From Fuerstiella marisgermanici (GTDB lineage Bacteria > Planctomycetota > Planctomycetia > Planctomycetales > Planctomycetaceae), in the NCBI RefSeq assembly GCF_001983935.1, contig NZ_CP017641.1:3968001-4032000 (forward strand): a stretch of DNA of 64,000 nucleotides, read 5' to 3'. Position 1 is the stretch's first letter. Each line of letters begins with the position of its first letter. A program made the translations under genes and the position numbers. The notes beneath the pieces are model-generated. The model searched no databases. It had not been told where the DNA came from and worked only from the letters and a program-made list of their open reading frames with translations. Positions 1-26,189 of this stretch are shown piece after piece.

Positions 1-86
1 TCAACAATGGAGCGGACGATCTCCAAGCCAATCAGGTTCACTACCCCTGCGATGACAAAGAAAACGGTAATGGCTCCCCAGTTCAT
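1..86 (-). CDS. Membrane protein, N-terminal part only
   Basis: An ATG at 86 opens a reading frame that leaves the window at its left edge after 28 codons. The visible peptide starts MNWGAITVFFVIAGVVNLIG and is strongly hydrophobic, so it looks like a first membrane segment or signal anchor. The start lies two bases past the stop codon of the GNAT gene, as expected for the next gene of the same minus-strand cluster. Nothing more can be said about function because the rest lies outside the window. Confidence 0.5.
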   Translation of the reverse strand, partial: MNWGAITVFFVIAGVVNLIGLEIVRSIV

Positions 87-6769: not shown

Positions 6770-6783
6770 GTAGCTGGTGTCCG
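6770..6783 (-). repeat. GGACACC motif, copy 1
   Basis: Minus-strand CGGACACCAGCTAC, an exact match to the consensus CGGACACCARCTAC. It lies 30 bases downstream of the stop of the minus-strand gene at 6814. No gene on its own strand follows. Upstream, GGTGTC can pair with the GACACC of the motif itself. Confidence 0.7.
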
Positions 6784-6813
6784 ACACTGAATGACACCGG
6801 TCAACCAATTCCC

Positions 6814-8651: not shown

Positions 8652-8885
8652 TCACTTCTATGACACTGCCTGTCGCCTGTCTCTCTCTGAGGCAGCACAT
8701 TTTGTGGAAATTGCGACAACGATCTTCTGCATCGCCGCATGTTCTTTAATTTTCGGGTGTTTGGGCCACGGGTAGAAACCGGCCTTTAGGTGTCAATCCT
8801 CTGAAACAAAAAGGTGCGACAAACGGCTGCTTGAAACCCAGTCGCATTTCCCACGAGAAAGGAAAACGGTAGTCCAGCCAAATAA
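8652..8885. other. Gap between the two divergent blocks, no gene seen
   Basis: A non-coding stretch between the minus-strand YwqG pair and the first plus-strand cassette. It should hold promoters for both sides, but no convincing -35/-10 pair or hairpin could be picked by eye. Confidence 0.3.
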
Positions 8886-8933
8886 CGGACACCAACTACT
8901 TGAGCGTCAAACACACCACACTTGGAGACGCTC
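8886..8933 (+). repeat. GGACACC motif, copy 3, with hairpin leader
   Basis: CGGACACCAACTAC at 8886-8899. Two bases later comes a seven-pair stem, GAGCGTC (8902-8908) with GACGCTC (8927-8933), ending directly at the ATG of the ArdC-like gene. The ribosome site GGAGA sits in the loop. Confidence 0.85.
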
Positions 8934-9824
8934 ATGCCCAACGCACTTCACACCGAAATCACGAACACGATCATCGAAGCACTGACCACTGGCGACCTTC
9001 CTCCTTGGCGAAAACCATGGTCATGTGATCCGAATGCATCGGGGCTTCACACCAGTTTGTCTTCGGGCAAGCCCTACCGAGGAATCAACCAGTTGATCTT
9101 GATGTGCTCGGCGATGAAGAACAACTTTCGTTCCAAGTATTGGGCCACGTTCAATCAAATCAAGAAACAGAACGGCAGCGTTCTGAAGGGATCGAAAGCG
9201 ACGACTGTTGTCCTGTACCGACCTGTTGACCGCACGAAGATCGACGACACCGGTAACGAAGTTGACGATTCCTTCTTCGTCATGCGATCTTTCAAAGTTT
9301 TCAACGCCGATCAAACAACTCTTGAGCAATTTCAAGTCAGCGACGAGCCAGAAACGGGCGTGCCGTTTGAAAACTACGAAAACGCCGATCGGCTTATCGA
9401 GGACATCGGTGCCGACATTCGATACGGCGGAAGCGAAGCCTTCTACTCGTCAAAAGAAGACTACATCCAGTTGCCTCACCGTGAACGCTTTGATTCAGCA
9501 GAGGCTTTCTACGAAACGGCTTTCCATGAACACGTTCACTTCACCGAGAATGAGAGTCGTCTGAACTGGAATCGAAAGAACGAAGGCTATGCGATGGGTG
9601 AATTGATCGCAGAACTCGGAAGTGTCCTGATGATGGTAGAACTTGGCCTGCCGATCTCAGATCAATCCAATCATGTTTCGTACCTCAAACACTGGCTCAG
9701 TGGAATGAACGACGATCCAAAGTTCATCTTCAAGGCATCGTCGCAAGCCAGCAAGGCAGTTGATTGGCTGCTGGCTTGCAGCAAGCAAGATGCCGAAGTC
9801 CGAGAAGCGGCAATTGTTGTTTGA
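8934..9824 (+). CDS. ArdC-like antirestriction protein (ssDNA-binding plus zincin-like domain)
   Basis: 296 residues from the ATG at 8934, which has GGAGA six bases upstream. The N-terminal ArdC/DUF1738 domain is marked by PPWRKPW and by YRGINQLILM followed by KYWATFNQIKKQNG and LKGSKATTVVLYRP. The C-terminal metallopeptidase-like part has HEHVHFT near residue 198 (HExxH) and a downstream ELIAELGSVLMM helix. Family members travel on plasmids, phages and integrative elements and protect incoming single-stranded DNA from host restriction. That suits an element with its own primase. It is the first gene of the motif-delimited array. Confidence 0.9.
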   Translation: MPNALHTEITNTIIEALTTGDLPPWRKPWSCDPNASGLHTSLSSGKPYRGINQLILMCSAMKNNFRSKYWATFNQIKKQNGSVLKGSKATTVVLYRPVDRTKIDDTGNEVDDSFFVMRSFKVFNADQTTLEQFQVSDEPETGVPFENYENADRLIEDIGADIRYGGSEAFYSSKEDYIQLPHRERFDSAEAFYETAFHEHVHFTENESRLNWNRKNEGYAMGELIAELGSVLMMVELGLPISDQSNHVSYLKHWLSGMNDDPKFIFKASSQASKAVDWLLACSKQDAEVREAAIVV

Positions 9825-9840
9825 GTGGTGTGTTGTCATG

Positions 9841-9860
9841 GCAGCGAACGGAGTCGCTGC
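9841..9860 (+). terminator. Hairpin after the ArdC-like gene
   Basis: A perfect seven-pair hairpin, GCAGCGA-ACGGAG-TCGCTGC, sits 16 bases past the stop and 10 bases before motif copy 4. There is no U-run, so it may be a processing or recombination structure rather than a true terminator. Confidence 0.4.
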
Positions 9861-9870
9861 ATTATCTCAA

Positions 9871-9921
9871 CGGACACCAACTACAGCGTCGTTCCGATCG
9901 GGACACACCGAGAAGGACGAC
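9871..9921 (+). repeat. GGACACC motif, copy 4, with hairpin
   Basis: CGGACACCAACTAC at 9871-9884, followed by GTCGTTCC (9888-9895) pairing with GGACGAC (9915-9921) with one bulged T. No convincing gene follows before copy 5; the interval 9922-10075 looks empty or decayed. Confidence 0.75.
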
Positions 9922-10075
9922 ATCACTGATCGAGTCGCCGCTTGGCTTTGACGCCTATCAAGCAGCATGAATCGAGTTGGCTGGACTGTGCAGCAGCCGC
10001 TTAAGATCACTGCCTCTGCGAAGCTTCAAGCCGCTATTGATCACTGGTGCGTCCTGATTGGTTTTTCAACTTTGA

Positions 10076-10116
10076 CGGACACCAACTACTTCGTCAGACA
10101 CAACCAACAACTGACG
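10076..10116 (+). repeat. GGACACC motif, copy 5, with hairpin leader
   Basis: CGGACACCAACTAC at 10076-10089, then CGTCAG (10092-10097) pairing perfectly with CTGACG (10111-10116). The ribosome site GGAG begins directly after the stem and the ATG is at 10126. Confidence 0.85.
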
Positions 10117-10125
10117 GAGAAAACC

Positions 10126-10542
10126 ATGTCCGACGTTCAAATTGAAAACACGATCGTAAATTGCCAACTGGTAAGCGTCCCCTATTCAACTGTCCTGAAA
10201 GCCATCGAAGCCACTGACAGCGACCCGTTCACCATGAAGATTCGTTGTAAGGTCGAGTGGGTTGCGATTGCTCAGTGCGTCAGTCTGGGCATCGATGCTC
10301 ACCTTGAGGCGTCTTTCATCAAGGGCACGGATGTTTATGACAACGGCACCTGCGAGATATCGCCACATTCGCTCTGCGTGCTGCTGAAGCGACTTGGCGA
10401 CACTGAATTCAAGGCGACTGAAGATCATTCGGCTGACGACCTCTGGGATGCAGCCACATCGCTGCAAAACTCGATCTTCATCGTCTTGGGAATCGACGAT
10501 TACGGCCAATACGTGGGAAGGGAGGCAATGGGTTTGGAATAA
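10126..10542 (+). CDS. Cassette-borne hypothetical protein
   Basis: 138 residues from the ATG at 10126, with GGAG eight bases upstream right after the leader hairpin. The longer frame from 9967 would run through motif copy 5 and is rejected. The protein starts MSDVQIENTIVNCQLVSVPY, is acidic, and has no recognisable domain, signal or membrane segment. It ends in GLE, and its TAA is followed without a gap by motif copy 6. The neighbouring gene also ends in LE-TAA before the motif. Confidence 0.7.
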   Translation: MSDVQIENTIVNCQLVSVPYSTVLKAIEATDSDPFTMKIRCKVEWVAIAQCVSLGIDAHLEASFIKGTDVYDNGTCEISPHSLCVLLKRLGDTEFKATEDHSADDLWDAATSLQNSIFIVLGIDDYGQYVGREAMGLE

Positions 10543-10586
10543 CGGACACCAGCTACCTCATCGAAAGGCAACTCCAACATTTGGAA
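10543..10586 (+). repeat. GGACACC motif, copy 6, with hairpin
   Basis: CGGACACCAGCTAC at 10543-10556, starting on the base after the stop codon of the previous gene. A short stem, TCCAA (10573-10577) with TTGGA (10581-10585), lies between it and the ribosome site of the next gene. The same CTCCAA..TTGGA word recurs after copy 7. Confidence 0.8.
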
Positions 10587-10598
10587 CGGGAGCAAACG

Positions 10599-10904
10599 AT
10601 GGCGTGGGAAATATCAATCACCGCAGAAGGCTGGTCAGAGATTCGTGAAAAACTCGACGACTGGAATCGTGAAGATCTGATCGCAGCGATCACAGACGAC
10701 AAGTTCGATGCGGTCTACGAGAAGGCAGGAATGGATCACGCCAAACGGGCTGCTGATGCTGAACGAAAGCGGATCAACGAACTGCCACATGACGTGCTGG
10801 CTGACCGAGCCTTTGAACTGGTCGAGCAGAACGGTACGTGTGACAACGGTGGCTACGGCTACTGGATCGACCGGGAGGGCTTTCACAAAGTCTGGTTGGA
10901 ATAA
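10599..10904 (+). CDS. Cassette-borne hypothetical protein
   Basis: 101 residues from the ATG at 10599, with GGGAG seven bases upstream. It begins MAWEISITAEGWSEIREKLD and is rich in charged helices; the end CDNGGYGYWIDREGFHKVWL is aromatic. The opening pattern (acting on single genes in mobile elements) gives no clear family. No signal or membrane segment. Its TAA runs straight into motif copy 7. Confidence 0.7.
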   Translation: MAWEISITAEGWSEIREKLDDWNREDLIAAITDDKFDAVYEKAGMDHAKRAADAERKRINELPHDVLADRAFELVEQNGTCDNGGYGYWIDREGFHKVWLE

Positions 10905-10958
10905 CGGACACCAACTACGTGGTTGTCAATGAATGCCAACTCCAACTTTTGGAGTGGC
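10905..10958 (+). repeat. GGACACC motif, copy 7, with strong hairpin
   Basis: CGGACACCAACTAC at 10905-10918 directly after a TAA. The hairpin is the strongest of the set: GCCA plus CTCCAA (10935-10945, one unpaired A) with TTGGAG plus TGGC (10949-10958) around a three-base loop. Confidence 0.8.
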
Positions 10959-10994
10959 CTCAAAATCAACGTCGCTATCTACAGAGAGCCTGCC

Positions 10995-11888
10995 ATGCAA
11001 ATCGAACGCCCACGAACACGAGTCGAAGAGAAACAGGAGCACTTGGCAAACATGGTGCGAATGATTGCTCAGAGCCAATATCACGCCCTGTTTGTGATTT
11101 CACAGGGTGGAACCGGCAAGTCCCGAACCATCACAAACGTCCTTCGTGACGAAGGACAAGACGTTGTGACGTACAATTCGCATACAACGCCGTTGGCTTT
11201 GTATCGGTTGCTTTGGGAAAACTCAAAATCCGAAAAAATAGTTTATATCGACGATTGCGATGAGCTTTACAACAAATCAGGACCGGCACTAGGACTCCTT
11301 CGCAGTGCCTTGTTCGGCCAACCAAACCGATTGGTGACGTACAACAGCAGCACTTTGCCACCTGATCTCCCCGCTCGATTTGAAACCACGTCACGGTTCA
11401 TCTTCTGTGCGAACAAAGTTCCAAAGAAGTGCCCGATCTTCGACGCTGTTGTTTCACGCTGTTTGGTCTACCGAATGGATCTGACCAACCCGGAGATCAT
11501 CGAACAGTTTCGTGTGATGAGTGAGAACGGCTACCCCGGTTGCCCTCCTGAAGCCGCCGAAGAAATCGTTGACTTTATAGAGCAACACGGTGACGAGAAG
11601 CAATTGTCAATGCGACTGCTGACACCAGCGATTCGCATCTACAAGTTTTGCACTGAGAACAACACGGACTGGCGTCCAGTCGTTCTTGCTCAGATGCAAA
11701 ATCTTGGACGACCGGTGTCGGCGACGAAACGACTCAACAACCATGAGCAACAAGAACGGTTACTGGCAGAGGCTCAAGCCAAATTTCCTGATTCAGTGTC
11801 TGAACAACAGCGGTACTTTTGCGACAAAACGAAGAAGTCGAGGGCAACGTTTTATCGGGCGATCAACCGAATGAAGAAAGGTGCATAG
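10995..11888 (+). CDS. AAA+ ATPase of the mobile element
   Basis: 297 residues from the ATG at 10995. Walker A is VISQGGTGKSRTIT near residue 35-45, Walker B IVYIDDCDELY, followed by the sensor-like FIFCANKVPKKCPIFDAVVS with Arg. The C-terminal LSMRLLTPAIRIYKFC and the tail KKSRATFYRAINRMKK look like a winged-helix or HTH end. The closest idea is a DNA-transposition or helicase-loader type AAA protein; a role in replication or maintenance of the element is inferred. An alternative ATG at 10929 would place the leader hairpin inside the gene, so I prefer 10995. The TAG runs into motif copy 8. Confidence 0.8.
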   Translation: MQIERPRTRVEEKQEHLANMVRMIAQSQYHALFVISQGGTGKSRTITNVLRDEGQDVVTYNSHTTPLALYRLLWENSKSEKIVYIDDCDELYNKSGPALGLLRSALFGQPNRLVTYNSSTLPPDLPARFETTSRFIFCANKVPKKCPIFDAVVSRCLVYRMDLTNPEIIEQFRVMSENGYPGCPPEAAEEIVDFIEQHGDEKQLSMRLLTPAIRIYKFCTENNTDWRPVVLAQMQNLGRPVSATKRLNNHEQQERLLAEAQAKFPDSVSEQQRYFCDKTKKSRATFYRAINRMKKGA

Positions 11889-11920
11889 CGGACACCGGCT
11901 ATTTGGCGGACACGGGTATT
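11889..11920 (+). repeat. GGACACC motif, copy 8, tandem degenerate pair
   Basis: CGGACACCGGCTAT at 11889-11902 begins on the base after a TAG. A second, more degenerate CGGACACGGGTATT follows at 11907-11920 and ends where the next, minus-strand gene ends. No hairpin is evident. Confidence 0.65.
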
Positions 11921-12513
11921 CAGGCGGCTGATTCTGAAAGTTCAACACACGTTGCGGATGTTGGACAAAATCGACTTATGTTCTGCAAACCCATTGAAGG
12001 GATCGACACCGGCGATGGCAAAACGTGTATCGCACATCGACCATCTCGATGACTTTCAACGAAGTTGTGGGCTGCTTGCATTCCATTCGGGGACATTCCG
12101 CAAGTGGTGTAAACTAAGATGTCTGGCTGTTCATGGAACGCAGCAGCGATGCCAAGAAGGCCACGAGCATCACCTGCGTTTTGAGGTAATATTGGGCGAA
12201 CATGCACACCAAGCGACTCGATAGTCGCTTTAGCTTGTTCCCTGCTCATGCCACATTTCATCAGCCAGCCGATTGCAGTTTGCTGCCTGAACCCAAACCA
12301 CGACCGAATTGGTTGCGCTGGTCGAGCAATGATCAATCTCTGCTCTCGATCTTCGGCGATCTTCTTCAAACTCCTTTCAAGTGCAGGCATGTCATTGAAG
12401 TGCCCTTCAGAAAAGTGAAGGCACAAGAACGTTCCCGGTGCAGTTGCAAACTCCGGGAGTGCAAGACACCGAGCCTCCTTTTCCTCATCAGGGAACCATC
12501 CTCGTGTTTTCAA
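11920..12513 (-). CDS. Cassette-borne hypothetical protein, inverted, TTG start
   Basis: 197 residues. The frame extends far upstream, but the segment that reads like real protein starts at a TTG at 12513, six bases after GGAGAG. It runs MKTRGWFPDEEKEARC, LCLHFSEGHFNDMPALERSL and SREQAKATIESLGVHVRPIL, and ends FCPTSATCVELSESAA. Charged and hydrophobic residues alternate as in a folded soluble protein. No family was recognised. It is the only gene between motif copies 8 and 9 and is inverted relative to them. Confidence is limited because start and frame were chosen by eye. Confidence 0.6.
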   Translation of the reverse strand: MKTRGWFPDEEKEARCLALPEFATAPGTFLCLHFSEGHFNDMPALERSLKKIAEDREQRLIIARPAQPIRSWFGFRQQTAIGWLMKCGMSREQAKATIESLGVHVRPILPQNAGDARGLLGIAAAFHEQPDILVYTTCGMSPNGMQAAHNFVESHRDGRCAIHVLPSPVSIPSMGLQNISRFCPTSATCVELSESAA

Positions 12514-12559
12514 CGGAACTCTCCTGCAAAGCCTCGCCAGCGCAATCGCCAGATTGTAA

Positions 12560-12612
12560 CGGACACCGGCTACGAAGGTGCAAACAACACTTTCACTTGC
12601 TGGAGTCCTTAA
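12560..12612 (+). repeat. GGACACC motif, copy 9, with weak stems
   Basis: CGGACACCGGCTAC at 12560-12573 directly after a TAA. The following leader can form AAGG/CCTT enclosing GCAA/TTGC before the ATG at 12613. A CAATC-GCCA-GATTG hairpin precedes the TAA. Confidence 0.65.
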
Positions 12613-13008
12613 ATGTGCCAAGTCAAAGCCAACACCAATTTTCACGGGCACGAACTCAGCGACATTGCTGTCATCAATCCGGGTGGATGGTTCGGGAAAA
12701 CATGGCTGATTGAAATCGGTGGCTCCTATTCGTCGTTCTACTTGGTTGTCGAAGCTGGGAGCATGTCTGACGCAATCGACGAATTGGCGGATGACGAAAA
12801 GCACAGCCATCACATCGTCGTCGAAGAAGAAAACCTCGGTGACTACGATTCTGAATCGTGTCACTACGGCCCATCGGGGCAGGTGCTGGATCTCGATCAC
12901 ATCATGATCTACGGGCAGGAAGGCTCGGCCACACCGTTTCCATGCAAGTACACCGGTGGCTGTATCGATGGCGTTTGTCCAACTGAATTTGAATGCGAGT
13001 GTGAATGA
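12613..13008 (+). CDS. Cassette-borne hypothetical protein, Cys-rich end
   Basis: 131 residues, start ATG at 12613 with GGAG about ten bases upstream. The sequence FHGHELSDIAVINPGGWFGK, then DAIDELADDEKHSHHIVVEE, suggests a small acidic alpha/beta protein. The tail has four cysteines in CKYTGGCIDGVCPTEFECEC (six counting all), possibly metal-binding. No family recognised. The TGA is followed at once by motif copy 10. Confidence 0.7.
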   Translation: MCQVKANTNFHGHELSDIAVINPGGWFGKTWLIEIGGSYSSFYLVVEAGSMSDAIDELADDEKHSHHIVVEEENLGDYDSESCHYGPSGQVLDLDHIMIYGQEGSATPFPCKYTGGCIDGVCPTEFECECE

Positions 13009-13042
13009 CGGACACCAACTACATCGGTGTCTACAGCCGATG
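13009..13042 (+). repeat. GGACACC motif, copy 10, with hairpin leader
   Basis: CGGACACCAACTAC at 13009-13022 directly after TGA. CATCGG (13022-13027, using the last motif base) pairs perfectly with CCGATG (13037-13042). The loop contains GGTGTC-like bases that could also pair with GACACC of the motif. Confidence 0.85.
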
Positions 13043-13066
13043 AACGGCAGGGAACAGGAATCAAAT

Positions 13067-13369
13067 ATGATCGCACCAAACAAAAACAACGACAACGACC
13101 CAAAGTTTGAATTGGGACAAGTCGTTGCCACTCCGGGAGCCATCGAGGCCCTCGAAGAATCCGGTGAAACAGCAGACACATTCATCCACCGGCACCACAC
13201 CGGCGATTGGGGCGATGTATGTGCCGATGATGCTCTGGCAAACGAAGAGGCTCTGCAAGTCGGCTTCAGGATTCTCAGCGTCTACCACACTTCAAAGTCT
13301 GTGAAGCTGTACGTGATCACGGAAGAAGATCGAAGTAGCACATGCTTGCTCTTGGCGACTGATTATTAG
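13067..13369 (+). CDS. Cassette-borne hypothetical protein
   Basis: 100 residues from the ATG at 13067, with AGGAA upstream; the longer frame from 12956 would cross the motif. The sequence PKFELGQVVATPGAIEALEE, then FIHRHHTGDWGDVCADDALA and FRILSVYHTSKSVKLYVITE, strongly recalls a family of small plasmid and phage proteins of unknown function that share the DWGD(V/L)..D..N pattern. No catalytic site known. Likely cytosolic. Followed after 52 bases by motif copy 11. Confidence 0.78.
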   Translation: MIAPNKNNDNDPKFELGQVVATPGAIEALEESGETADTFIHRHHTGDWGDVCADDALANEEALQVGFRILSVYHTSKSVKLYVITEEDRSSTCLLLATDY

Positions 13370-13421
13370 ATCAATTCTTTGCCATCTTCTTTGCTTGAGC
13401 AACACCCTTGGCAACTGTGTG

Positions 13422-13464
13422 CGGACACCAGCTAATTCAATGTCGGGGAGTCAACGCCGCATTG
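13422..13464 (+). repeat. GGACACC motif, copy 11, with hairpin
   Basis: CGGACACCAGCTAA at 13422-13435; CAATG (13438-13442) pairs with CATTG (13460-13464). Here the hairpin overlaps the 3' end of an inverted gene rather than leading a plus-strand gene. Confidence 0.7.
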
Positions 13465-14024
13465 TCAAGGGGTGTCGGATTTGCCAGCGTTGCTGAAAAC
13501 TCAAACTGCCGACGAACAGCCTGCATGTTGCTTCGGTCCCAGAGCGTCAAGTGATTCTTCTTATGACTGCGACTTGATGGCTCGTAGTCAATTCGTTTGT
13601 ATACTGCCAAATGCTCAATCGCTTCTGGGTGAACGATTGATTCGTCAATCCCGGACGGATGCAAGGCACCAGCAAGATCACTGAGGTTAACTCGGACTTT
13701 GCGCCACACGACTGGATCAAGACCGCAATTGCGGTCCAGCCACATCAATCCCAATGCTGCCCCGTCTTCATTGATCTCGACGCCTTCCGTGATCGCAGCT
13801 TTGAACAATGGGCTGTCGTACGGGATCTCACTGATGAATGGCAACGTCACTTCAACTCCATCCTCAAGAATCAGGGCGTTTGCCGTCGCTGATGTAACTG
13901 CAACCGGATTGTTGAGTTCTTCGAAGTGCCAAAGCGGAATGGGAGTCCCAGTGAAATATGTTAGGCCCCCGAGGATCAGCACGAGGCACAGCGCCAGCCA
14001 GCGAATATGCCTCAACTGTGTCAT
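13437..14024 (-). CDS. Cassette-borne membrane-anchored hypothetical protein, inverted
   Basis: 195 residues from the ATG at 14024, chosen for the GGAGA upstream and for the signal-anchor it produces (RHIRWLALCLVLILGGLTYF). The remainder is a soluble acidic domain with no recognised family; it would face the periplasm. It is the only gene between motif copies 11 and 12 and runs opposite to them. Confidence 0.72.
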   Translation of the reverse strand: MTQLRHIRWLALCLVLILGGLTYFTGTPIPLWHFEELNNPVAVTSATANALILEDGVEVTLPFISEIPYDSPLFKAAITEGVEINEDGAALGLMWLDRNCGLDPVVWRKVRVNLSDLAGALHPSGIDESIVHPEAIEHLAVYKRIDYEPSSRSHKKNHLTLWDRSNMQAVRRQFEFSATLANPTPLDNAALTPRH

Positions 14025-14128
14025 TGGGGATCTCCATGAAGGACAGCCATTCAAAGAATTGACAGGCCAACAGCATTGTACCTGCTGATCCGTCAGTACC
14101 AACAGAAATTCGATTCCGCTGACTCTAG

Positions 14129-14142
14129 CGGACACCAGTTAG
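14129..14142 (+). repeat. GGACACC motif, copy 12
   Basis: CGGACACCAGTTAG, two mismatches to consensus. CCGCT (14116-14120) can pair with AGCGG (14127-14131), so the start of the motif is part of a stem. The following gene is inverted. Confidence 0.65.
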
Positions 14143-14224
14143 TGACAAAAATGGATAGTCAGAATTTCAGCCGGAGTCGTTCCCTGAAACCCCGAAAAAA
14201 CCAAAGCCTCAAATGCGACAAATA

Positions 14225-14256
14225 GGTGACAACACCGTTGTGGTCTTTTTGTCACC
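14225..14256 (-). terminator. Hairpin after the macro-domain gene
   Basis: An eight-pair stem, GGTGACAA (14225-14232) with TTGTCACC (14249-14256), lies seven bases past the minus-strand stop at 14263. Likely terminator of that gene; no long U-run. Confidence 0.5.
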
Positions 14257-14262
14257 ACAAAG

Positions 14263-14739
14263 TCAGCCGAAATCGTAGACATATGTTTCGATGTCACGAT
14301 TGAGCAATGCCTTTTCGATCAATGGCTCGATCTCTTCCCATTGCCCGCCCGCCAAGCCACAGCCGATTCTCGGCATGTGAACAGATGCGGAATACTCTGC
14401 GGCAAATTTGCCAACGGACTGAAGCCCACGCTCGATAGCCGCATATCTGACTGGAGCTTGCCCTTCCTTGCGACGGAGCCCGTGCTGGCCGATCAAGTTG
14501 GCAACCCAGAGGCCGTCTTCTGCTTTGACGAACTGAACCTCGCCAAGCTCAAACGGTTGGGCACCATCTTCTTTGTGCCAGCGTCGGTACTCCGCTTCCG
14601 GTTCTTTCCATCGTTTCGAGATAGCGACAACGAAGCCCTTCCCCCAACCGCCGATATCGTTGCATACGTGGACGATGATCTTCGGCCCATCGCCAACCGG
14701 CTGGGTGGCGTCGCCTTCGAGGTAGTTGATGGACATCAT
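14263..14739 (-). CDS. Macro-domain protein (ADP-ribose binding or hydrolase)
   Basis: 158 residues, a complete single macro domain. The ADP-ribose loops are visible: INYLEGDATQP at the start, VHVCNDIGGWGKGF, and MPRIGCGLAGGQWEEIEPLI. The pattern is closest to the ALC1/TARG1-like group, which binds ADP-ribose or removes it from acidic residues, but no activity can be asserted from sequence alone. It is inverted in its cassette (between motif copies 12 and 13). An ADP-ribosylglycohydrolase lies 14 kb away at 28474, so the region carries two ADP-ribose functions. Confidence 0.92.
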   Translation of the reverse strand: MMSINYLEGDATQPVGDGPKIIVHVCNDIGGWGKGFVVAISKRWKEPEAEYRRWHKEDGAQPFELGEVQFVKAEDGLWVANLIGQHGLRRKEGQAPVRYAAIERGLQSVGKFAAEYSASVHMPRIGCGLAGGQWEEIEPLIEKALLNRDIETYVYDFG

Positions 14740-14859
14740 TGTTCTTCAATTTGTAAAGTGTCAGTAATGTTCAGATTCTGGTGTGGAATCGATCAGATGC
14801 CCCGAAATCCATGAGACTGGAACTGTAACGGGTCGAGCAAAATTGACAGTTTACATTAA

Positions 14860-14896
14860 CGGACACCAACTACATCGCTGAGTTCACCAGTCAGCG
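14860..14896 (+). repeat. GGACACC motif, copy 13, with hairpin leader
   Basis: CGGACACCAACTAC at 14860-14873, then CGCTGA (14876-14881) pairing perfectly with TCAGCG (14891-14896). GGAG begins on the last stem base and leads the resolvase ATG at 14908. Confidence 0.85.
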
Positions 14897-14907
14897 GAGT
14901 AGGAAAC

Positions 14908-15513
14908 ATGGCGAAGAAGACAGCAATCTATTCGAGGATCAGCAGCCGACAGCAAGATCACCGCAGCCAGATGCCTGACCTTGAGCGTTGGGCTGAAGCA
15001 CACGGTGAACCAGTGGTCTACTTCAAAGACACGTTCACGGGCCGCACCATGGCTCGACCGGGCATGGACAAAATGATGGAAGCCTTGAGAGCAGGCAAGC
15101 TTGACCGCATCGTTGTCTGGCGGCTCGATAGACTTGGCCGAACAACGAAGGGACTCTGCCAACTGTTCGACGAGCTTCACTCACGTGGCGTTGATCTGGT
15201 CAGCATGAAGGATGGGTTCAGCTTGGCATCACCAGCCGGTCGATTGCACGCACGCATATTGGCGAGTGTCGCCGAGTACGAGACCGAGATCAGAGCCGAG
15301 AGAGTTGCCGCAGGTCAGGCAGCAGCACGCAAGCGAGGAAAGACGTGGGGCGGCAGCGACAAGGGATGGCGTTGGAAAGTGACGGTCGATCAGGTCAACG
15401 CAATCCACGAGATGAAATCCGCAGGCCGCAAGATCACGCAGATCGCACGAGTGACGGGGCTGTCACGCCCAACGATCTACCGTGTGCTGCGAGAAGTTGA
15501 ACCGATTGTTTGA
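14908..15513 (+). CDS. Serine recombinase (resolvase/invertase family)
   Basis: 201 residues. The catalytic N-terminal domain has AIYSRISSRQQD, with the nucleophile expected at Ser12, and VVWRLDRLGRTTKGLCQLFD, with the conserved arginines. The E-helix region is ASVAEYETEIRAERVAAGQA. The C-terminus KITQIARVTGLSRPTIYRVL is the DNA-binding helix-turn-helix. Length and layout match small resolvases and invertases that break both strands through a phosphoserine link. It is the last gene of the motif array and carries the same leader as the others. It may move the element, resolve multimers, or act on the motif sites; the sequence does not decide among these. Confidence 0.93.
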   Translation: MAKKTAIYSRISSRQQDHRSQMPDLERWAEAHGEPVVYFKDTFTGRTMARPGMDKMMEALRAGKLDRIVVWRLDRLGRTTKGLCQLFDELHSRGVDLVSMKDGFSLASPAGRLHARILASVAEYETEIRAERVAAGQAAARKRGKTWGGSDKGWRWKVTVDQVNAIHEMKSAGRKITQIARVTGLSRPTIYRVLREVEPIV

Positions 15514-17556: not shown

Positions 17557-17681
17557 AGGCTATCGTTGCTCCCAATCCCAAAGCGCTCTGGCTTCTGCAT
17601 GAATCTTTCGGGGCCAGCAATGCCCTGATCGCATACTGCCTCGCATCCTCGAAACACCATTTTATCGAAGGTTCGCCTCAC

Positions 17682-17750
17682 ATGAATCCGTCTGATTTGC
17701 TTCGCCGCCTTTACCTACATCGTCAGTGGCTAAGCCACAGGCTTCTGTAA
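17682..17750 (+). pseudogene. Remnant of a duplicated DinB gene, first 22 codons
   Basis: The short frame MNPSDLLRRLYLHRQWLSHR ends in LL and a stop. It matches the start of the intact DinB gene at 23349, MNSTELLRRLHEHRRWANHR, with LL next. The similarity continues upstream: TTATCGAAGGTTC occurs before both starts. The frame stops where similarity ends, so this is a deletion remnant. Confidence 0.8.
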
Positions 17751-17764
17751 TTTAAGTTTCGGGC

Positions 17765-17855
17765 AGCGAGTTCTCTGCTCTCGTGAGCAAGGCAAGCCTC
17801 AGGTTTTGGAATGGCGAACTCTACCTTCGACCTGTAATACATCCATGGCACGTCG
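17765..17855 (-). pseudogene. Remnant of a duplicated HEAT-like gene
   Basis: On the minus strand this segment encodes VPWMYYRSKVEFAIPKPEAC followed by LAHES. It is clearly related to VPRMLWRSKAKFAIPKLEAC and LQHESS in the intact gene at 23937-24785. Both ends are missing. Together with the DinB remnant it keeps the convergent order of the intact pair, with the sequence between them deleted. Confidence 0.75.
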
Positions 17856-17922
17856 GTTGGAATCATCGTTGTCGTGTGCCAGAATCAGCGAGCAGGACGT
17901 TCAACAGCAAAGGAACTCGAAA

Positions 17923-23168: not shown

Positions 23169-23348
23169 GTGGTTCTCGTTAAATGAATCGAGCCAGCAGG
23201 ATCGTCTGGCAGTTGCAGTATCATCAAGCCACTTTCCAATCACAAAGGTCTCCAACGTCGCCTAAACGAACCTTTCGACCACAGCATTGTCCTGAGCGCA
23301 TAGCGGCCCACAAATCCGACACCATATCTTATCGAAGGTTCACTCAAG

Positions 23349-23906
23349 ATGAATTCGACCGAATTGCTCAGGCGCCTGCATGAACATCGCCGGTGGGCAA
23401 ACCACAGACTTCTGGATACAGCAGAGCAACTCAATCACGAACAGCTGCACCAAGCATATCCCATCGGCCAAGGCTCGATTTGGAAAACGCTGACTCATCT
23501 TTACGCCGCCGAATACGTTTGGCTGGAAGCACTCACCGGAAATGAGAGCCCGCTGACACCGGGTGACGCACGTGGAAAACTCCCCGGCAATCAGGAAGGC
23601 GAAGGGGCGATGGCTTCGCTTACTGAGTTACGAGCACGATGGCGAGAGCTTGACCAGCGATGGGTTGCGTATCTCGCTGCTCTTGAGCCGGAGTCTCTGT
23701 CAGAAACGGTCTACAAAAATAATTCCGTTTCAGGGCAACGCTTGCCAACGCAGCGAAGTGATATTCTGATTCATGTCTGCACGCACGCTCAATACACGAC
23801 CGCACAACTGGTCAACATGTTGAGACAAGCAGGCCAAACTGACCTGCCAGATGTGATGCTGATTTCGATGGCACGAGAAGGATCAGCTTTCCGGCCAGAC
23901 AAATAG
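23349..23906 (+). CDS. DinB family protein
   Basis: 185 residues with the classic DinB pattern: LLRRLHEHRRWANHRLLDTA at the N-terminus, IWKTLTHLYAAEYVWLEALT in helix two with the first His, and DILIHVCTHAQYTTAQLVNM with the second His pair. Likely a metal-binding four-helix protein. Its promoter region and first 22 codons are partly duplicated at 17625-17750. It is convergent with the HEAT-like gene. Confidence 0.93.
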   Translation: MNSTELLRRLHEHRRWANHRLLDTAEQLNHEQLHQAYPIGQGSIWKTLTHLYAAEYVWLEALTGNESPLTPGDARGKLPGNQEGEGAMASLTELRARWRELDQRWVAYLAALEPESLSETVYKNNSVSGQRLPTQRSDILIHVCTHAQYTTAQLVNMLRQAGQTDLPDVMLISMAREGSAFRPDK

Positions 23907-23936
23907 TTCAGGATCACCCTGTCATTCAGTTCGACG

Positions 23937-24785
23937 TCACAGCCCGAGATAAGGTTTCTCTCCACGAAGTTCAGCAAGCAGGTTTGATTTGTAGAACGCA
24001 TTGATCTCCAGACCTTCGACAAACTGCAACGACTCTTCTCTTTTCGACGGATCGATGATTGCGATTGCTTTCGCACAAAGAGCAGCGAAATCGCTGCTCT
24101 CATGTTGAAGGCAAGCCTCCAGTTTTGGAATAGCGAACTTTGCCTTTGAGCGCCAAAGCATCCGTGGGACGTGGGCAGAAACTCGTTCATCCCAATGGCC
24201 GAGAAGATCAGCGATTTCAACGATCAACTTCTGAAAGTGCGACAGAAGCAACTCCGAGATACAGGTGACTGCAACTAATCGAACTTCAGAATCGTCGTCG
24301 TCGGTGCCGTCGAGGATTACTCGAAGCCCAACGTCGCCGAAGTGAACAAGGATGCTTGCAGCGTCCGAAGTGCGATCTCGATACCGTGGATAGGTTGCGA
24401 ATTCCCTGAGCAGCGACTCGCAGTAAGTTCGCTTCTTCTCAAGGGACCAGTTGTCGGCTTCTTCAGGAGAATCCACGCTGCCGACTGAGACAACCGCTTT
24501 CTGCAATTCACTGGTCACGAAATCAAATCGTTCTCTGAAGCTGCATTTTCTCAGTATGTCGAGTTTGTCTTCAACGTTAAGCTGAAACTTCGCCAACGCT
24601 CGGCGAACCCGAGCCCCCAAGAGCGAAGTCGTGTTCGGCAGTTCTTCCAATACTCCGACAGCCACTTCCCTTCTTGTGGGATCATTCATGATGATCGCCT
24701 TGGCGGCAAGAAATCGATGGTTGGGGTTTTCATCCGTCAGCCATTCTTTCGGCACTCCGTTATTCTCACGTTCTTGTAGTTCCAT
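23937..24785 (-). CDS. HEAT-repeat-like protein
   Basis: 282 residues of helical repeats, for example NPNHRFLAAKAIIMNDPTRR, SEVRLVAVTCISELLLSHFQ and ERVSAHVPRMLWRSKAKFAI. The repeat length and Ala/Leu pattern are those of HEAT/armadillo solenoids, which bind proteins or nucleic acids. No catalytic site. A decayed fragment of a second copy is at 17765-17855. Confidence 0.75.
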   Translation of the reverse strand: MELQERENNGVPKEWLTDENPNHRFLAAKAIIMNDPTRREVAVGVLEELPNTTSLLGARVRRALAKFQLNVEDKLDILRKCSFRERFDFVTSELQKAVVSVGSVDSPEEADNWSLEKKRTYCESLLREFATYPRYRDRTSDAASILVHFGDVGLRVILDGTDDDDSEVRLVAVTCISELLLSHFQKLIVEIADLLGHWDERVSAHVPRMLWRSKAKFAIPKLEACLQHESSDFAALCAKAIAIIDPSKREESLQFVEGLEINAFYKSNLLAELRGEKPYLGL

Positions 24786-25069: not shown

Positions 25070-25083
25070 GTAGCTGGTGTCCC
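25070..25083 (-). repeat. GGACACC motif, copy 14
   Basis: Minus-strand GGGACACCAGCTAC starts on the base after the TAA of the gene at 25084 and leads to AAGGAG and the ATG at 25048. No hairpin is seen. Confidence 0.7.
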
Positions 25084-25689
25084 TTAGAGTCCATGCCGTT
25101 CGAAGTAGGCTGTCGAGTCACCGTCGTGTCCGTAATTGCACCTCCAGCAAACATCGACGGCGTGCTGCACACGAGACAAGCACCGAGGGCATTGATGAGT
25201 CCAGTTTTCCGGGGGAACGAAGCCTGAATAGGTGGGCTCAGCAAATCCACCGTTCCGAATTAGTTCAGAATCTGGATTTAGAACTCGTGGCAACGTGTCC
25301 CAAAAATAGTGCCCACCTGTCCGAGCCCATTGTTGGTACTCAGGATCGTTTCGGACAATCAGAGTTCCAAACCAAAGGCAAGTCCAGAACAACGCCGTGA
25401 CAATGACGGTGATCCAGAACGGGACAATGAAACAGTCAGCAAAGGTCCAGTAAGTTCTTCCTGCTGCCTCATTTCCGAGCAAGAAGAACAGGAAGAACAC
25501 GAACATGCAGATTCCAAACATGAATCTACCCATGATGGTTGATGGCAGTGTACGAATCCCTCGGCTTGAATCGATGATATGTAGAAATAGAAGCACCAGC
25601 AGTGCCCACCAAATCGATGCCATGAACGAGCAACTGCCGTTCAACCACATCGCCGGGAAAGCTGACAGAAGAAAAATGCGACCGATCAT
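25084..25689 (-). CDS. Membrane protein with C-terminal zinc ribbon
   Basis: 201 residues from the ATG at 25689, which overlaps the upstream stop (ATGA). There are about four membrane segments, including ASIWWALLVLLFLHIID, GRFMFGICMFVFFLFFLLG and FIVPFWITVIVTALFWTCLW. The C-terminal CPRCLSRVQHAVDVCWRCNY is a four-cysteine zinc ribbon. Function unknown. The TAA is followed directly by motif copy 14. Confidence 0.8.
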   Translation of the reverse strand: MIGRIFLLSAFPAMWLNGSCSFMASIWWALLVLLFLHIIDSSRGIRTLPSTIMGRFMFGICMFVFFLFFLLGNEAAGRTYWTFADCFIVPFWITVIVTALFWTCLWFGTLIVRNDPEYQQWARTGGHYFWDTLPRVLNPDSELIRNGGFAEPTYSGFVPPENWTHQCPRCLSRVQHAVDVCWRCNYGHDGDSTAYFERHGL

Positions 25690-26094: not shown

Positions 26095-26131
26095 GCCTCA
26101 GTTTGGGTTGAGGCTTCGTAGTTGGTGTCCG
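26095..26131 (-). repeat. GGACACC motif, copy 15, with hairpin leader
   Basis: Minus-strand CGGACACCAACTAC (26131-26118) preceded by TAA. Three bases later GCCTCA (26100-26095 side) and TGAGGC (26109-26114) form a perfect six-pair stem; the next ATG is at 26090. On the minus strand the order is motif, GCCTCA, loop, TGAGGC, ATG. Confidence 0.85.
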
Positions 26132-26189
26132 TTACTGGGACCGATTGTGGAGAATGGTCAGTAATGCTTTGTCGGTCGCCTTCTGCCTA

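Follow-up and report, generated by a model that had tools for sequence, protein, structure and literature searches.

Array-specific tags and leader hairpins before the genes of a mobile array in Fuerstiella marisgermanici and its relatives

We analysed a window of 64,000 nucleotides from the planctomycete Fuerstiella marisgermanici (bases 3,968,001-4,032,000 of its single 8.92-Mb contig, NZ_CP017641.1), in which a repeated motif, TAACGGACACCAACTAC, stands before successive genes of an array and is commonly followed by a hairpin. Almost every gene in the family of arrays to which this one belongs starts with an array-specific tag, often followed by an RNA hairpin; the tag is restricted to the arrays and stands at a nearly constant spacing ahead of the start codon, and the hairpin covaries and fits the mRNA-sense strand better than its complement. 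We put a rough probability of 0.55 on the view that every copy forms the 5′ leader, made up of a recognition tag and an mRNA hairpin, of one unit in a conserved array on an integrative mobile element. This may be an undescribed leader common to the arrays that helps in timing translation.

Motif-anchored hairpins in the Fuerstiella array

Twelve full copies of the motif were used. Ten lie in the window, with core starts at 8886, 9871, 10076, 10543, 10905, 12560, 13009 and 14860 on the plus strand and at 26131 and 25083 on the minus strand; the other two (L031, 14664- and 16350+) lie outside it, before the integrase gene (3,922.6 kb) and before the next gene (3,924.3 kb). The original prediction placed the repeat at 8886-14896, where copies are indeed present, and the set proved wider by the two minus-strand copies and the two outside the window. 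In a whole-genome search, copies with at most one mismatch were confined to 3,922-3,994 kb of the 8.92-Mb genome. The motif is restricted to the element and oriented with the genes, save for four degenerate copies (11889, 13422 and 14129 on the plus strand, 6783 on the minus strand), none of which stands upstream of a same-strand gene. A start codon usually follows TAACGGACACCAACTAC at a distance of 20-76 nt, and the genes led by the motif encode an ArdC-like protein, small proteins of unknown function, an AAA ATPase, a serine recombinase and a tyrosine integrase.

Stems had been reported from inspection at nine places after the motif. Those at 8902 (8 bp), 10092 (six Watson-Crick pairs, nine with G-U), 13022, 14876, 26095 (minus strand) and 10940 were all found, as were the weaker ones at 9888 and 10573; that at 13438 follows a degenerate copy and does not rise above chance (P = 0.12 against shuffles). 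When the 12 full copies were compared with dinucleotide shuffles, the motif-anchored stems comprised 55 Watson-Crick pairs versus 41.5 (maximum of 51 in 1000 shuffles; P < 0.001), stems of at least 6 bp numbered 5 versus 0.39 expected, and the summed stem energy was -95.9 versus -57.0 (standard deviation 6.5). The same test gave no comparable stem signal in the sequence upstream of the motif or at the degenerate copies. The leaders had a structure z of -1.50 versus -0.06 at 48 ordinary gene starts of the region (P = 0.004), while the raw energy of the pre-start region did not separate the two (P = 0.15). The pairing is kept while the bases differ, as had been claimed; the arms of one copy pair better with each other than with arms swapped in from other copies (P = 0.0003). 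The stems also take a fixed place after the motif, which anchors them more than the start codon does. Counted from the base that opens the motif core, strong 5′ arms begin almost solely at +12 to +18, and in most of the 12 copies the arm starts 0-4 nt past the motif. The stem at 9888 turned out to be helix 1 of a structured non-coding RNA and not part of an mRNA leader.

One explanation would be that these are chance stems in an ordinary repeat, as the many leaders without a strong stem might suggest. It is refuted by the shuffle, ordinary-start and arm-swap controls, and by the slide control described below, and we give it next to no credence. As for the strand that folds, allowing G-U pairs raised the signal from z = 4.36 to 5.08, and allowing A-C pairs, which are G-T on the other strand, lowered it to 1.67. 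Because G-U raises and A-C lowers the signal, folding of the mRNA-sense strand is favoured.

Features of the window (coordinates, strand, description):
8883..8899, plus: motif TAACGGACACCAACTAC, perfect copy, leader of the ArdC gene
8901..8934, plus: hairpin TGAGCGTC/GACGCTCA, 8 bp; 3′ arm extends to the A of the ATG (8934); covaries in ArdC ortholog leaders
8934..9824, plus: ArdC-like protein (ArdcN PF08401, MPTase-PolyVal PF18818)
9868..9884, plus: motif copy CAACGGACACCAACTAC, opening a non-coding unit
9885..10072, plus: structured non-coding RNA unit, ~200 nt including the motif; kept in 7 genomes, no Rfam match
10073..10089, plus: motif copy TGACGGACACCAACTAC
10089..10119, plus: hairpin CTTCGTCAG/CTGACGGAG, one U-G pair; Shine-Dalgarno GGAG inside the 3′ arm
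10126..10542, plus: 138-aa protein, function unknown; 64% homolog in L202; its stop codon supplies the opening three bases of the motif that follows
10540..10556, plus: motif copy TAACGGACACCAGCTAC; its TAA doubles as the upstream gene's stop; weak hairpin at 10573-10585
10599..10904, plus: 101-aa protein, function unknown; three genomes encode homologs 71-73% identical, each preceded by a motif of its own
10902..10918, plus: motif copy TAACGGACACCAACTAC; its TAA doubles as the upstream gene's stop
10939..10955, plus: hairpin ACTCCAA/TTGGAGT, 7 bp, 3-nt loop
10995..11888, plus: AAA-type ATPase (PHROG 1250); homolog in G738 83% identical
11886..11902, plus: degenerate motif TAGCGGACACCGGCTAT between convergent genes, without hairpin
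12557..12573, plus: motif copy TAACGGACACCGGCTAC
12574..12594, plus: hairpin GAAGGTG/CACTTTC, one G-U pair
12613..13008, plus: 131-aa protein, function unknown, conserved array gene, with 44-70% identity to its counterparts in other arrays
13006..13022, plus: motif copy TGACGGACACCAACTAC; its TGA doubles as the upstream gene's stop
13022..13042, plus: hairpin CATCGGT/GCCGATG
13067..13369, plus: 100-aa protein, function unknown, conserved array gene
13419..13435, plus: degenerate motif copy, then a minus-strand gene; stem at chance level
14126..14142, plus: degenerate motif copy, then a minus-strand gene; without hairpin
14857..14873, plus: motif copy TAACGGACACCAACTAC
14875..14897, plus: hairpin TCGCTGA/TCAGCGG
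14908..15513, plus: serine recombinase (Resolvase PF00239); five other arrays encode counterparts 71-80% identical to it
26118..26134, minus: motif copy TAACGGACACCAACTAC, before a 134-aa gene (26090-25686)
26095..26114, minus: hairpin GCCTCA/TGAGGC; Shine-Dalgarno GAGG inside the 3′ arm
25070..25086, minus: motif copy TAAGGGACACCAGCTAC, before a 79-aa gene, without hairpin
6770..6786, minus: isolated variant motif TGTCGGACACCAGCTAC, no gene after it

Between motif copies of the same orientation there are three minus-strand genes (11889-12560, 13422-14129 and 14129-14860). All the degenerate copies have a G ahead of the core, and their final C is gone; they look like fossils of replaced units.

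Leaders and structured RNAs of related arrays

Through homologs of the 101-aa protein and the ATPase we reached, in 14 further genomes of the class, a total of 15 arrays. ArdC is present in every one of them, and after it come subsets of the 138-, 101-, 131- and 100-aa proteins, the ATPase and the serine recombinase. Each array has its own motif directly before its genes (GGACACCGGCCA, GACACCCRCAA, GGCACCYGCTA, GGCACCCCCAA, ATACCCACTA and GGACACCGGSAA); the core common to them is roughly ACC-N-N-C-N-A, and with the patterns used a motif rarely matches arrays of another type. Even in a single genome (G288), two arrays in neighbouring stretches of one contig have different motifs. Gene set and order partly recur across genomes while the motif changes. 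Read in the direction of transcription, 99 of the 123 motif copies are followed by an open reading frame (ORF) with a ribosome site, the start codon lying 33-46 nt past the motif end in 75 of these 99 (median 42). The stop codon of the upstream ORF falls within 12 nt of the motif in 48 of the 123 copies, and at -3 to -1 in 29.

In 89 leaders of the 15 arrays the motif-anchored stems again exceeded shuffles (z = 13.8), with stems of at least 6 bp in 19 leaders versus 3.5 by shuffle. The strand test gave z values of 13.8 with Watson-Crick pairs, 11.7 with G-U and 6.1 with A-C, again favouring the sense strand. The middle of the leader is an A/C-rich loop region (A 0.38, C 0.35, G 0.07). Among 34 leaders of usual length with stems of at least 6 bp, 15 have the Shine-Dalgarno site in the loop, 11 have it in the 3′ arm and 8 past the stem.

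Since MAFFT failed to align the arms of paralogous leaders, covariation was assessed on orthologous ArdC leaders, using a sequence-only alignment of 16 leaders from 14 genomes with a 7-bp helix. Its helix cells are paired in 86.6% versus 77.2% after shuffling, cells with changes on both sides number 13 versus 4.9, and the covariation score is 0.390 versus 0.228 (0 of 500 shuffles). Kinship alone can lift sequences above such shuffles without structure. Because related but unstructured sequences can do so, the slide control, in which the signal was lost when the partner was slid, and the independent shuffle tests matter here. There is good evidence that pairing in the leaders is under selection.

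The arrays also contain structured RNAs. No clear gene follows the motif copy at 9871, and the unit it opens (9871-10072) can be aligned with counterparts downstream of ArdC in six further genomes (L193, L195, L196, L199, L202 and L207). Its consensus has 54 pairs, 24 of them with changes on both sides versus 13.3 after shuffling; 88.6% of the cells are paired (0 of 500 shuffles), and the signal collapses on sliding. The structure was drawn from the alignment on which it was tested, which favours it, yet the control by sliding is a strong one. An ORF seems to follow inside the unit in four genomes; in three, including this one, the unit apparently stands alone. A second unit of ~110 nt, whose long arms (GATCGCCG..CGGCGATC) are complementary, is found at a comparable position in five arrays (L194, L200, L203, L204 and L206). 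Neither unit matched Rfam above the gathering score, at which the window had no match and 13 of the 15 related loci had tRNA alone (L206 and L207 were not scanned); at least one structured RNA of the arrays is absent from Rfam. As antisense regulators the units were rejected, the matches to the motif's complement reaching 6 nt at most, and leader peptides ending at the motif's TAA were not consistently found.

In four arrays, terminator-like hairpins (a stem plus a T run) come immediately behind the motif, with the next start codon a short way on: L200 at 12639, L204 at 12494, L206 at 12006 and L205 at 12253 (0-based coordinates in the direction of transcription). These are possible attenuators.

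Candidate roles of tag and hairpin

The original prediction offered two readings of the hairpin, a folded recombination site acting as single-stranded DNA or a leader RNA controlling translation. The first would make the region an integron-like cassette array. Integron attC sites occur once per unit, abut the stop codon, keep their pairing as their sequence varies and form array-specific families. The arrays resemble them in having one motif per unit, in stop codons that often abut the site, in pairing that outlasts sequence and in site families that are array-specific, as in chromosomal integrons; moreover, genes of both orientations and non-coding units lie between same-orientation copies (11889-14860). 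However, the attC core boxes RYYYAAC/GTTRRRY are present in 0 of 12 copies here and 1 of 123 elsewhere, there is no outer pairing, and an inverted motif copy that could serve as a partner at the other end lies downstream in just 2 of 123. The sense strand fits folding better than the bottom strand on which attC sites fold, and gene set and order are partly conserved across genomes. An attC-like site is unlikely, and a folded recombination site as a whole very improbable.

The leader RNA half of the prediction fared better, with pairing kept in 16 ArdC leaders, a sense-strand G-U fit and a near-constant start distance, although the tag could equally act on DNA. The proposed leader has three parts, which the comparisons show along with their spacing: an array-specific anchor of 11-17 nt, often on the stop codon with which the preceding gene ends or right behind it; a hairpin, present in many copies, whose 5′ arm begins within ~6 nt of the anchor, with an A/C-rich loop and the Shine-Dalgarno sequence usually in the loop or 3′ arm; and a start codon ~42 nt past the anchor. 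The hairpin would act in the mRNA and set ribosome entry, and it probably controls translation. One putative array-encoded factor would read the anchor and switch the units of the array jointly, perhaps when the element enters a new host, as the leading position of ArdC suggests. Because the anchor is uniform within arrays and different between them, even in one genome, its recogniser should be array-encoded and evolve with the array. As a tentative extension, which we consider doubtful, the arrays might possess a novel post-transcriptional switch, acting across the whole array, in which a private RNA-binding factor, or the array's own structured RNA from the unit after ArdC, reads the private tag and jointly opens or closes a dozen or more hairpins of unrelated sequence, so that the gene set is turned on after transfer.

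Several results weigh against a leader that acts on translation. In this genome the Shine-Dalgarno sequence is no more occluded than at ordinary starts, and three of the 12 copies (25083-, L031 16350+ and L031 14664-) have no convincing stem. Elsewhere the median leader z is merely -0.4, with many leaders lacking a good stem, and total folding energy alone cannot separate the strands (z of -1.08 versus -0.87). Motif copies also open non-coding units (that at 9871, and units of 110 and ~220 nt elsewhere), which a purely translational role does not explain, and the terminator-like hairpins in four leaders suggest a transcriptional layer. Unexceptional occlusion, stemless leaders and non-coding units together make a transcriptional role of the tag possible, as an operator, stoperator or unusual promoter.

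The foremost alternative, itself improbable, is that the motif is a double-stranded DNA site (operator or stoperator) at gene junctions, where an array-encoded repressor would block initiation or elongation and the hairpin or terminator would help the polymerase to stop. As in stoperators, the motif is asymmetric and oriented with transcription; it sits in the short gaps between genes, is specific to its array and is the same throughout that array (PMC9283540). A degenerate inverted half-site, GGTGTC, at +17..22 gives 36 of 72 matches versus 18 expected (0 of 5000 shuffles), terminator-like hairpins follow the motif in L200, L204, L205 and L206, and the non-coding units and the copies between convergent genes would be accounted for. 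This explanation does not account for the near-constant 42-nt start distance, the covarying sense-strand hairpin and the Shine-Dalgarno sequence inside it.

The motif could also be part of an array-specific promoter, with transcripts starting just past it and a 5′-terminal stem stabilising mRNAs and non-coding RNAs. Coding and non-coding units alike open with the motif, often followed by a stem whose 5′ arm begins 0-6 nt past it, and some phages encoding distant relatives of the ATPase have a sigma-70-like promoter before many genes. However, there is no conserved -35 element upstream (of five groups, four have a mean information of 0.04-0.07 bit, and one, which consists of related arrays, has 0.33) and no -10-like box at a fixed distance past the motif, and a promoter scan was at chance level. 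A sigma-70 promoter is unlikely, as is an array-specific promoter in general.

Known start-associated repeats and the carrier element

The closest known kinds are the Start-Associated Sequences (SAS) and the stoperators of mycobacteriophages. In cluster K mycobacteriophages the SAS is a 13-bp sequence, GGGATAGGAGCCC, that holds the Shine-Dalgarno sequence and lies 3-9 bp, by a narrower figure 3-7 nt, from the start codon; the ESAS consists of imperfect 17-bp inverted repeats with a spacer, the left half being better conserved, and the authors found little support for hairpins in its mRNA (2011, PMC3203893). Like the SAS, the array tag is a short asymmetric repeat before the starts of some mobile-element genes, mostly in one orientation, which can hold the stop codon of the upstream gene and is nearly absent from the host genome. 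Unlike the SAS, it lies ~42 nt upstream of the start and lacks the Shine-Dalgarno sequence, the hosts are different and we saw no sequence relation. The main difference from the ESAS is that the array leader hairpins covary. As for inverted repeats, what the array motif shows is the degenerate 6-bp inverted half-site at +17..22. The stoperators of cluster A mycobacteriophages (L5, TipsytheTRex) are asymmetric, element-specific intergenic sites of ~13 bp oriented with transcription, all of which holds for the array motif (PMC9283540). The element's repressor binds stoperators and blocks elongation there; in the literature consulted, neither hairpins nor a fixed distance to a start are described for them. 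In three IMG/VR contigs encoding the distant ATPase relative (L212, L213 and L233), an almost identical sigma-70-like promoter repeat precedes many genes, e.g. AACGGTGTACA...TATAAT in L212. It resembles the tag in lying just past the upstream gene and before each start, and differs in its TATAAT box, which is absent from the arrays. A limited search of the open-access literature found no description of these arrays.

A tag-and-hairpin leader would define a portable control element that mobile gene arrays have in common, in a class of bacteria that has been little studied. The two arrays with different tags in one genome provide a natural specificity control and, because covariation here shows selected RNA structure, the arrays can serve as a test case for the role of phage start-associated repeats.

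When searched for TAACGGACACCAACTAC, neither 57 relatives nor 392 genomes from the phylum showed clusters, because arrays carry their own motif variants. The exact motif gave 50 single matches without a cluster in IMG/VR, taken as chance, and the exact 17-mer gave 14 single matches in GTDB genomes. A peptide-pattern search of GTDB contigs gave no close relatives of the ATPase, but this search is insensitive and homologs exist. The 17-mer match in Paenibacillus macerans (L143, G757) is part of a dispersed repeat of ~100 copies, TAACGGACACCAGCGA, with nearly the same 16-mer as the motif and copies sometimes paired 50 bp apart; it is probably coincidental. In a matching Rhodopirellula metagenome-assembled genome the motif is not enriched. 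Elements with integrase homologs (about 12 genomes) lack the motif and so are not the same array, and the direct repeats AATTCCCGGGAATT (L129) and GGGACGCAGATACTAAC (L138) of other elements did not look start-associated. A perfectly conserved 21-mer, CCGACGGGCGTCTAGCTGTCG, lies between Xis-like and integrase genes at L137 1550 (-), L139 16763 (+) and L135 1856 (-), in what are related integrative elements.

The carrier of the Fuerstiella array is most likely an integrative element, because its integrase (a PHROG 1 match with residues R257, K283, H365xxR368 and Y400 invariant in eight homologs) adjoins a duplicated 47-bp stretch from the 3′ part of tRNA-Arg. This 3′ part of tRNA-Arg(TCG) occurs in the genome (G000) in three copies, at 3,921,050 (+), 4,045,212 (-) and 4,097,365 (-), each near an integrase and one inverted. 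We read them as stacked integrations with a later inversion; since the copies differ in orientation, the region has been rearranged. The whole genome has 40 tyrosine-recombinase matches. Within the window, 17601-17856 and 23268-24175 contain imperfect duplications, 69-77% identical, inside a run of small genes.

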